A stretch of 44,116 nt of DNA from an uncultured Thermomicrobiaceae bacterium. Lineage in GTDB: Bacteria; Chloroflexota; Chloroflexia; Thermomicrobiales; Thermomicrobiaceae. The DNA is taken from contig CALKCJ010000030.1 of NCBI GenBank assembly GCA_938082375.1, forward strand, positions 1-44,116. The letters run 5' to 3'. Positions 26,505-30,939 of the stretch are shown in pieces (position 1 is the first letter of the stretch; every line of letters begins with the position of its first letter). The notes below the pieces were generated by a model, which made no database searches, was not told the DNA's origin, and saw only the letters and a program-made list of their open reading frames with translations. The position numbers were made by a program, and so were the translations under genes.

Positions 26505-27395
26505 CTAGCTCTCGACCTGGTCGATGGGGCCGACGAAGTGCTCGTAGACGGCGCGGGAAGCGCGGGCCAGGAGCTGGGTGGCCGCGTAGCCGTCGCGGGC
26601 GCGCTTGGTGAACAGCGCGACGGCGTAGACGACGTCGCCGGCGTAGACGAGGCCCGCGTCATTGCGCACCCCGCGGATCGATCCAGTCTTGTGCGCCACC
26701 TGGACGCCGAAGGGGAGCAGCGCTGGGATCCGCTCGCGGAACTTCTGGCGTTTGAGGATAGCGAGGACAGCTTCGCGCGCGGCCGGGCTCAGGCCCTCGC
26801 CTCGTTCGATCGCCTCGTAGAGGCGCACCATGTCGCGGGGTGTGGTGATGTTGTTGTCCGGCGTCTCGCGCGCGGCCCGGCAGTCGAGCGAGGCCAGGCG
26901 CGAGGCGAGGCGTGCCTTGAGTGCCTCATAGGTCAGCGATGGGTCGTCGGGGTCGAGGTCGTGGAGCCCGGCCAGGATCTCCCAGGTATCGAGCGGCAGC
27001 GAGGTTCGGCGCATGTCCAGCTCGCGCAGCGTCTGAGCGACTGCCGCGCGACCGAGCAGGTCGTAGATCAGGTCGGTCGCCATATTGTCGCTGACCGTAA
27101 TCATCAGGGTCGCGATATCTTTGACTGTGAGCGCGGCGCCGGGGTCGAGGTCTTGGAGCACGCCGGAGCCTGGAACACGCTGTTTTGCATGGAGCGTGAT
27201 CCGCTGCGCCAGGTCAATCTGCCTGGCGTCAGCCTGGCGATACAGGGTGTATAGGAGGACAGTCTTGAACGTCGAGGCCGTGGGGAAGACCTCGTCGGCG
27301 TTGTAGGCGAGCTCCGCTTCGGTATCCAGCCGTTTGGCCGCGATGCCGAGTACGCCGTCGAATCCGCGGGCCAGTTGCTCGAACCTCGCCGTCAT
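26505..27395 (-). CDS. class A beta-lactamase-like serine hydrolase
   Basis: A 296-residue protein of the class A beta-lactamase/transpeptidase-like fold. STFK at 41-44 supplies the nucleophile Ser41 and Lys44, SDN is at 102-104 and KTGS at 236-239. Trp138-Glu139 aligns with the Ω-loop Trp165-Glu166 of TEM-type enzymes. The residue matching Asn170 is Gly143, and the loop is about 25-30 residues longer than in TEM. No signal peptide is present at the chosen ATG, so either the enzyme is cytoplasmic or the true start is missed. GGAGG lies 10 bases before the ATG. Antibiotic hydrolysis is possible but not shown; a general serine hydrolase role is equally plausible. Confidence 0.8.
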   Translation of the reverse strand: MTARFEQLARGFDGVLGIAAKRLDTEAELAYNADEVFPTASTFKTVLLYTLYRQADARQIDLAQRITLHAKQRVPGSGVLQDLDPGAALTVKDIATLMITVSDNMATDLIYDLLGRAAVAQTLRELDMRRTSLPLDTWEILAGLHDLDPDDPSLTYEALKARLASRLASLDCRAARETPDNNITTPRDMVRLYEAIERGEGLSPAAREAVLAILKRQKFRERIPALLPFGVQVAHKTGSIRGVRNDAGLVYAGDVVYAVALFTKRARDGYAATQLLARASRAVYEHFVGPIDQVES

Positions 27396-27711: not shown

Positions 27712-29109
27712 ATGGATGGTACGGTCGAGACTCTGGGTGCGAGCAAACTGCCGGCTCCTGAACTGGAGCGGGAGGCCCTCGAGCATGTCTGGATCCACTC
27801 GGCTGAGTGGGTTCGCATCGCCGAGGAGCGAGGGTTCCGCGTCTTCGAGCGGGCCTATGGGAGCACGCTGGTCGACGTCAACGGGCGAGAGTACATCGAT
27901 GGGCTCTCCGGGCTCTGGGTGGTGAACGCGGGCCATGGCCGCCAGGAGATCGCTCAGGCCATGGCTGAGCAGGCAGCCCGGATCGCCTACGTCTCCTCGG
28001 CGAACCACACGACGGTGCCCACAGTTCAGCTCGCGAATGTGCTGGCCGGCCTGACGCCAGGGGACTTGAACCGCATCTTCTTCTGCTCCGGCGGCTCGGA
28101 GGCGGTCGAGAGCGCGATCAAGATTGCCAAGCAGGTTCAGGCGATGCGAGGTTTTCCCAAGCGGTACAAGGTCATTGCCCGCCGGGGCAGCTACCATGGC
28201 ATGACCTACGGTGCGATGAGCTTGACCCAGGCGCGCAACGAGAAGTTCTTCGGGCCGTTCATGTATGGGGTCTCCTATGTGCCCTCGCCCAACCGCTATC
28301 GCAACGACTTCGGTCTCGAGGGGGAAGAGGGCGACCTGATGTGCGCCAACTACGTCGAGCAGGAGATCCAGTACCAGGATCCGGAGACGGTCGCGGCGGT
28401 GATCGGCGAGCCGATCTCCACCTCGAACGGCGTCCATGTGCCCTCGCCCAAGTACTGGCAGCGCCTACGCGAAATCTGCGACAAGTACGGCGTGCTGCTG
28501 ATCATGGACGAAGTCATCAACGGCTTTGGTCGCACCGGCACGATGTTCGCCGCTGAGCACTTCGGAGTCGTGCCGGACTTGATGACGATGGCCAAGGGGC
28601 TGACCTCCGGCTATGTCCCAATGGGGGCGGTCGCGGTCAGCGAGAAGGTCTTCGAGATCTTCCGCGAGCAGAAGGACGTACCGCTCGGGCACCTGCTCAC
28701 CTTTGGCGGCCATGCGGTAGCTGCGGCTGCGGCGCTCAAGAACCTCGAGATTTTCCAGCAAGAGCACTTGGTGCAGCAGAGCGCCGAAAAGGGACAGTAC
28801 CTGCTCACGCAGCTTAGGGAACTCCTGCACCATCCGACGGTCGGTGATGTCCGAGGGCTCGGGCTGATGTGCGGCCTGGAGATGGTCAAAAACAAGGCGA
28901 CCAAGGAGAAGTGGCCGCGCAACTCCGCCTTCATCAAGACGCTCGAGCGGCGGATGAACGAGAAGGGGTTGCTGACCCGCGTCTGGGAGATCGTCCATGT
29001 CGCGCCGCCGCTGGTAGTGACTTACGAGGAGCTGGATCGCATCGTCGAGATCATCGACGAGTCGCTCACCGAGGCCGAGAACGAGTTCGCGAGCGAGATC
29101 GGCGTCTGA
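27712..29109 (+). CDS. class III PLP-dependent aminotransferase
   Basis: A 465-residue fold-type I aminotransferase of class III. Visible are the phosphate-binding SGGSEA at 126-131, YHG at 161-163, D266 (IMDEVINGFGRTG), which pairs with the pyridine nitrogen, and the Schiff-base lysine K295 (MAKGLTSGYVPMG). The overall pattern is closest to omega-amino-acid:pyruvate aminotransferases, which use beta-alanine, GABA or diamines; the exact donor is not readable. The ATG at 27712 has GGGGGTG 5 bases upstream. It is a single-gene unit between a strong leader hairpin and a strong 3' hairpin. Confidence 0.93.
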   Translation: MDGTVETLGASKLPAPELEREALEHVWIHSAEWVRIAEERGFRVFERAYGSTLVDVNGREYIDGLSGLWVVNAGHGRQEIAQAMAEQAARIAYVSSANHTTVPTVQLANVLAGLTPGDLNRIFFCSGGSEAVESAIKIAKQVQAMRGFPKRYKVIARRGSYHGMTYGAMSLTQARNEKFFGPFMYGVSYVPSPNRYRNDFGLEGEEGDLMCANYVEQEIQYQDPETVAAVIGEPISTSNGVHVPSPKYWQRLREICDKYGVLLIMDEVINGFGRTGTMFAAEHFGVVPDLMTMAKGLTSGYVPMGAVAVSEKVFEIFREQKDVPLGHLLTFGGHAVAAAAALKNLEIFQQEHLVQQSAEKGQYLLTQLRELLHHPTVGDVRGLGLMCGLEMVKNKATKEKWPRNSAFIKTLERRMNEKGLLTRVWEIVHVAPPLVVTYEELDRIVEIIDESLTEAENEFASEIGV

Positions 29110-29171: not shown

Positions 29172-29683
29172 TCACTCCTCGATGCGTCCAGCCAGGCGCT
29201 CGGCCAGGCCGCTCACTGGCTCCACGGCTGCTTCACCGTCTACCGTACCGTCCCCTTCCGCTCGGCGAATCTCGACTGTGATCCGGTAGTACTCAGGTCG
29301 CATAGGAGAGCTTGTTCCTCGCCTGGTCAGGAGTCGCCAGAAAGCGCCTCCACCGTTTCTCCATCATCCGTTGTGAGGACGACGTCGATCTGAGCATCCT
29401 CGACGATCTCCGGCGAGCCCGGACGCTAGAGCAGGACGCTGATATCGACCTCGCCAGCCCGGAGCGGTGCCGGACTGGTAAAGACCGTCACCTCGAAGGG
29501 CCCGGCGCGCTCGGCTGCGACGTGCACCTGGCTGCCATTCGCCAGCGCTCCGGCGGTGAAGGCGAGCGAGAGCACCAAAAGACCAGCCAGCAGCGCCGGC
29601 CGGCGAGTTCCTGCGAGCCGCAGAAAAGGGAAGAGGTAGTCGGCACCCAGCGACGCATGCGTATGTGCTAGCCAGTCTTGTGT
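29172..29683 (-). pseudogene. decayed FixH/CopC-like exported protein gene
   Basis: Read on the minus strand, one frame gives a signal-like segment (RRPALLAGLLVLSLAFTAGALA) followed by AGPFEVTVFTSPAPLRAG and VDISVLL. A TAG at 29428-29426 interrupts it, and the same frame then continues with RPGSPEIVEDAQIDVVL to a TGA at 29329-29327. The next expected block, ATPDQARNKLSYAT, is in a second frame, and the last, YYRITVEIRRAEGDGTVDG, is in a third, ending at 29172. Together they read like one protein of the FixH/CopC-like type seen near cytochrome or copper genes. One C-to-T change (CAG to TAG) and two frameshifts would explain it. No in-frame start codon remains before the signal segment. It lies 49 bases after the DinB-like gene on the same strand. 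The last block could alternatively be a free 43-residue ORF starting at the ATG at 29303. Confidence 0.7.
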
Positions 29684-29732: not shown

Positions 29733-30206
29733 TCAGAGGAGCGCGTCCCGCAGGCGCTGATAGGCGTCCTGGTCGTACTGAGCCAGCCGCTGGATCAGCT
29801 CGGCGAGGGTGACCTGGCCGAACTCCGGGTGCTGGGCAGCGCGTTGCCACTGGTCTTCGCTGAGCTGGTTCAGCCGCTGTACCAGCTCATGGCGTAGCTC
29901 GCGGAAGGCCGCGAGCGCCTCGAACGGATCCTCGCGGGCGTAGCCGCGCTCGATCGCCATGAGATCTGGATCGAACTCGCTGATCTCGGGCTCATTCTCG
30001 GCCAGGATCCGTTCCAGTCGCTGCAAGGTCTCGGCATCGAAGTCGCGCAGGTAAGCGAGGATCTCGACGGCACCCCATTGCCCGCCGCACCCAGCCTTCC
30101 GCAGCGCCTCGCCTGAGAGATCCTCGACCAGGTTAGCGACCCGGTCCGGGAAGCGGCGAAGCTGGTCCAGAAGCTCCTCTCGGTCGGCGTTTTGGTCACT
30201 GAGCAT
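29733..30206 (-). CDS. DinB-like four-helix protein
   Basis: A 157-residue helical protein of the DinB/YfiT type. The pattern ELLDQLRRFPDRV, WGAVEILAYLRDFDAETLQRLERIL and LAELIQRLAQYDQDAYQRLRD matches the four-helix bundle, with likely metal-site positions in the second and last helices (Asp and Gln where His is usual, so metal binding is doubtful). Function is unknown; relatives include thiol-dependent transferases. The ATG at 30206 lies inside the end of the racemase gene (11-base overlap), implying translational coupling. A longer open frame upstream is racemase antisense. Confidence 0.75.
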   Translation of the reverse strand: MLSDQNADREELLDQLRRFPDRVANLVEDLSGEALRKAGCGGQWGAVEILAYLRDFDAETLQRLERILAENEPEISEFDPDLMAIERGYAREDPFEALAAFRELRHELVQRLNQLSEDQWQRAAQHPEFGQVTLAELIQRLAQYDQDAYQRLRDALL

Positions 30207-30939
30207 GTCGGTAAGCCAGCCCCTTCGACGGCAGCAGGCGCTGCCCAAGGGCAACAGCGACCGCGGCTTCGGCCAGTACCCGCGTCGGGTCGATCAGCGG
30301 CACTGGCACGTCTTCCGCCCGCAGAGCCAGCGGCAATTCGGTGCAGGCGGCCACCACCGCCTGCGCACCGCGCCGCGCCAGCTCCAGTGCCGGGCCGAGT
30401 ACGAGCTCCGTCGTCGACCGCCCGAGCTTTCCGGCTTTGACGGCGGTGATCGCCCTCGAGACCAAGGCCTGCTCGTCCTCCGGAGGGCTCATCGCCCGCA
30501 ACCCACGCTCGGCGAGCGCCCGGTGGTAGAGCCCAGAGGCAATGGTACCGGCAGTCGCCAGGATACCCACCGTCGCTCCGGCTGGTAGCGCCTCGGCCAG
30601 CCGGTCAGCGGTCTCATCGATCATACTGAGAAAGGGTATCGCGATCTCGGGCTGCACTCGCGGGAGAAAGGCATGGGCGGTGTTGCAGGGCATGACGATG
30701 AAGGACGCGCCAGCGCTGGCCAGTCGACGCGCGCTGGCGATCAGCCACGGCGTTGGGTCGGGCCCACCGTGTAGGAGCGCTTCCGTCCGGTCTGGCACGG
30801 ATGGGTCGGCATCGATGATCACGTGCAGGTGCTCCTGGTCTCGGGTCGCTGGCGTGGCTTCGATGATCTTGCGGTACAGGTCGACTGTCGCTAGTGGGCC
30901 CATGCCGCCGAGCACACCGATCACCTGGCGTTCGGCCAT
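30196..30939 (-). CDS. aspartate/glutamate racemase family protein
   Basis: A 247-residue cofactor-independent racemase. The two catalytic cysteines are C85 (VMPCNTAH) and C199 (AACTELPL), each in its conserved block, and the N-terminal GVLGGMGPLATVDLYRKI is typical of aspartate racemases (RacD/YgeA type). It interconverts L- and D-Asp or a related acid in the cytoplasm; D-Asp may serve the cell wall. GAGGA lies 10 bases before the ATG. It is first in an operon with the DinB-like gene and the pseudogene, with a promoter candidate near 31130. Confidence 0.92.
   Translation of the reverse strand: MAERQVIGVLGGMGPLATVDLYRKIIEATPATRDQEHLHVIIDADPSVPDRTEALLHGGPDPTPWLIASARRLASAGASFIVMPCNTAHAFLPRVQPEIAIPFLSMIDETADRLAEALPAGATVGILATAGTIASGLYHRALAERGLRAMSPPEDEQALVSRAITAVKAGKLGRSTTELVLGPALELARRGAQAVVAACTELPLALRAEDVPVPLIDPTRVLAEAAVAVALGQRLLPSKGLAYRHAQ

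Follow-up and report, generated by a model that had tools for sequence, protein, structure and literature searches.

Almost certain remains of a ytkA-like and sco1 gene pair in a Thermomicrobiaceae genome

In Bacillus subtilis, CtaK (YtkA) acts together with Sco in assembling the CuA site when copper is low, and the YtkA domain of a second protein, YcnJ, is partly redundant with CtaK (PMC9145763, PMC13344008). Here we describe a locus on the minus strand of a 44,116-nucleotide stretch of DNA (the whole stretch analysed, hereafter the window) from an uncultured Thermomicrobiaceae bacterium. Sequence comparison indicates that this locus is almost certainly a true pseudogene, left over from a ytkA-like gene and an adjoining sco1 that stand intact at the same place in relatives.

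Three-frame translation of the minus strand between 29172 and 29683 gives the blocks of one protein in order but in three frames: the first holds LLAGLLVLSLAFTAGALANGSQVHVAAERAGPFEVTVFTSPAPLRAGEVDISVLL, a stop codon and RPGSPEIVEDAQIDVVLTTDDGETVEAL, the second LATPDQARNKLSYAT, and the third PEYYRITVEIRRAEGDGTVDGEAAVEPVSGLAERLAGRIEE, closed by a stop. Joining these blocks and searching them against relatives, the check proposed in a preliminary description of this DNA, retrieved a gene that stands unbroken at this position in two genomes of the same genus as the window genome, Thermalbibacter longus (L033) and HRbin26 (L034), with E about 2e-43 and 67–68% identity; identity to other genera of the family is 41–50%. 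Judged by its E value, the match to the intact same-genus gene is far beyond chance. The preliminary description had proposed one protein spread over three frames, interrupted by a CAG to TAG change; translation together with the intact same-genus matches bears out the first, and translation with the aligned relatives the second. Its further statement, that a start codon is missing, applies only to the frame that it used: an ATG aligned to the HRbin26 start survives at 29658-29656, and falls outside that frame because a 7-bp difference separates the two. This difference was seen against HRbin26; the T. longus alignment is poor there. Most of the blocks do derive from one protein, as had been supposed, but the last ~13 codons (about 29210–29172) come from the neighbouring sco1, whose end they form. 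The features are collected in Table 1.

Table 1. Lesions of the pseudogene and the genes that flank it, in window coordinates
Feature	Position	Strand	Evidence or remark
YtkA-like signal/TM-anchored protein pseudogene	29217..29658	-	Interrupted; 67–68% identical to intact same-genus genes
Pseudogene parts in order: start region, 7-bp difference, TAG, one-base insertion, 20-bp gap, truncation after beta-domain	29217..29658	-	
In-frame TAG	29426..29428	-	Q of 'VLLQR' in 7/7 intact relatives aligned
Extra base causing a frameshift	29347..29354	-	GGTGGAGG vs GGTGG-GG in relatives
20-bp gap vs intact genes, approximate place, after TCCTATGCG	29298..29300	-	Alignment to relatives
~780-bp deletion junction	29204..29217	-	GCCTGG or close form at both ancestral break sites
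sco1 remnant: last codons (LAERLAGRIEE) and stop	29172..29210	-	Matches sister's sco1 end
DinB-family gene, intact, upstream (flank control)	29733..30206	-	
Asp/Glu/hydantoin racemase gene, intact	30196..30939	-	
Class-III aminotransferase gene, intact, convergent	27712..29109	+	

In both T. longus and HRbin26 the gene order is racemase, DinB, ytkA-like and sco1, followed by the convergent aminotransferase. The stop codon of the ytkA-like gene overlaps the sco1 start in HRbin26 and nearly does so in T. longus. Because the pair adjoins the aminotransferase gene not only in these same-genus genomes but in Thermomicrobium genomes as well, the intact arrangement is ancestral. The intact ytkA-like product comprises a signal/TM segment, a beta-domain and a C-terminal TM segment. 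The relatives' downstream gene is a clear SCO1/SenC member (PF02630, E 1.4e-33) and, in T. longus, HRbin26 and the sister genome (G003, locus L032, about 93% identity to the window genome), carries the CxxxC and His of that family as CPDxC and VGHTTV, which the window has lost. Alignment of the window against both same-genus genomes leaves a gap of about 780 bp, and beyond it the last ~13 codons and the bases downstream match the sco1 end of the sister. The tail of the locus thus reads as the SCO1 end because the deletion removed sco1 down to those codons, together with the terminal part of the ytkA-like gene. This deletion, and the loss of sco1 that came with it, had been overlooked in the preliminary description. 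In relatives, GCCTGG or a close form of it occurs at both break sites, which makes a deletion between short repeats of this type plausible.

The ytkA-like gene of this lineage has acquired a nonsense codon and frame-breaking indels, and a deletion of ~780 bp, possibly between two of the short GCCTGG-type repeats, has brought its beta-domain up against what is left of sco1, the last ~13 codons; both genes are almost certainly dead at this locus.

The preliminary description had left two explanations standing, a recent pseudogene or several errors in the sequence. That sequencing or assembly errors, possibly including an artefact at the junction, conceal an intact gene is something that the draft state of the assembly (61 contigs) and the crowding of several breaks might suggest. 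However, across 14 flanking genes compared with the sister (16,923 coding bases) we found two indels, of 3 bp and 9 bp, neither of them frame-breaking, and the flanking aminotransferase, DinB and racemase genes have open frames and clear family matches. Within the remnant, moreover, the changes specific to the window fall about equally on codon positions 1, 2 and 3 (11/14/15), whereas most changes in intact copies are at position 3. Set against three flanking genes, the ratio of changes at positions 1 and 2 to those at position 3 is raised in the remnant (25:15 versus 62:151; Fisher p about 1e-4, from ~340 comparable bases and three taxa), a pattern that, as read from these substitutions, is that of relaxed selection. 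Base-calling error cannot account for a 780-bp deletion, and the ytkA-like gene is absent from the sister as well. An origin in errors, which we consider very improbable, is contradicted by the undamaged flanks and by changes that fall evenly on the codon positions; both support the recent pseudogene. Even more remote is continued expression of the remnant as a short fused peptide with a new role (for example the 43-aa frame MRPEYYRITVE...GRIEE): in its last block the frame stays open between an ATG and the stop of SCO1, but the signal/TM segments are absent and little of the beta-domain is left, the codon-position pattern looks neutral and the sister has no counterpart. With intact orthologues at the same place in relatives and stops and frameshifts here, the pseudogene is a case of ordinary gene decay, of a kind already known. 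Near the locus, the window also encodes a beta-lactamase enzyme family protein (26505–27395; PF13354, E 1.4e-64).

The lost protein had been described as FixH/CopC-like. Neither FixH (PF05751) nor CopC (PF04234) matched the window blocks or the relatives at E values up to 1, and we reject both identities. The best profile for the intact orthologues of the genus is YtkA-like (PF13115), with E about 0.001 and 15.8–20.2 bits, below the cut-off of 25.9, and on these profile scores the protein weakly resembles YtkA rather than FixH or CopC. In a model of an intact relative (pLDDT 72, moderate confidence), a beta-domain lies between an N-terminal and a C-terminal helix. At that confidence the model matches CrdA best; DUF4426 and FtrA/P19 follow, and unrelated beta proteins are among the matches too. 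A sequence search of solved structures returned nothing significant. The earlier label was roughly of the right kind, given the weak YtkA-like profile and a modelled fold that may be of the copper-handling type seen in CrdA. The invariant columns of the alignment of intact YtkA-like proteins include none of the conserved His or Met residues expected of the CtaK copper chaperone, so that only context suggests a copper role for them. By analogy with Sco and YtkA/CtaK of B. subtilis, the intact pair probably helped to supply the CuA site of cytochrome c oxidase with copper.

Other copper genes persist in the window genome. Contig 27 carries genes for PCuAC, SCO1 and a SCO1-like protein, contig 15 carries another SCO1, and contig 52 (L102, 64-2301) encodes a CopC-CopD-YtkA fusion that is intact and has its domains in the same order as YcnJ of B. 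subtilis. Because PCuAC, SCO1 and CopC-CopD-YtkA genes remain elsewhere, the pair was likely lost as redundant, and its loss was probably tolerated through the PCuAC-SCO1 cluster and the fusion, whose genes are present and would presumably suffice. We also considered loss of the haem-copper oxidase as the cause of decay and found it unsupported, as the genome keeps four subunit I hits, the same number as G001. A candidate YtkA paralogue on contig 26 was rejected, its match being antisense to a histidine-biosynthesis gene cluster.

The pair seems to decay repeatedly, with three cases: both genes here, the ytkA-like gene in the sister and sco1 in HRbin27 (L037; Bacterium HR27), a Thermomicrobium. 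In the sister, sco1 is intact and about 100 bp are left between it and DinB (L032, 7124-7229), part of which may be the 3' end of the lost ytkA-like gene. In HRbin27 the ytkA-like gene is intact and the adjoining sco1 appears broken; that sco1 (L037, 3113-3790) contains two stops, lacks the CxxxC motif and has a frame problem. Whether such repeated, piecemeal loss in the Thermomicrobiaceae marks a branch of copper delivery that is dispensable, with PCuAC-SCO1 and CopC-CopD-YtkA as its backup, is in our judgement evenly balanced.

The locus offers a small and clean example of gene decay, probably in respiratory copper delivery, and touches no larger open question. For annotators, a gene call here is unwarranted, and the local loss of sco1 need not mean the loss of every Sco-family gene. 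Like YtkA/CtaK of B. subtilis and the YtkA-like family (PF13115), the intact protein has an exported beta-domain of similar size, with a weak profile match, and its gene adjoins that of Sco, the functional partner of CtaK in CuA assembly (PMC9145763). Unlike YtkA/CtaK, the intact relatives have a C-terminal TM segment in place of the lipoprotein anchor, score under the Pfam cut-off and lack invariant His or Met, and the window copy is broken. Whereas the relatives' downstream gene belongs clearly to SCO1/SenC (PF02630), the window keeps only its last ~13 codons. In fold, although identity is 18% and model confidence only moderate, the intact relative most resembles H. pylori CrdA (9ll2), with a TM-score of 0.72 by target length.
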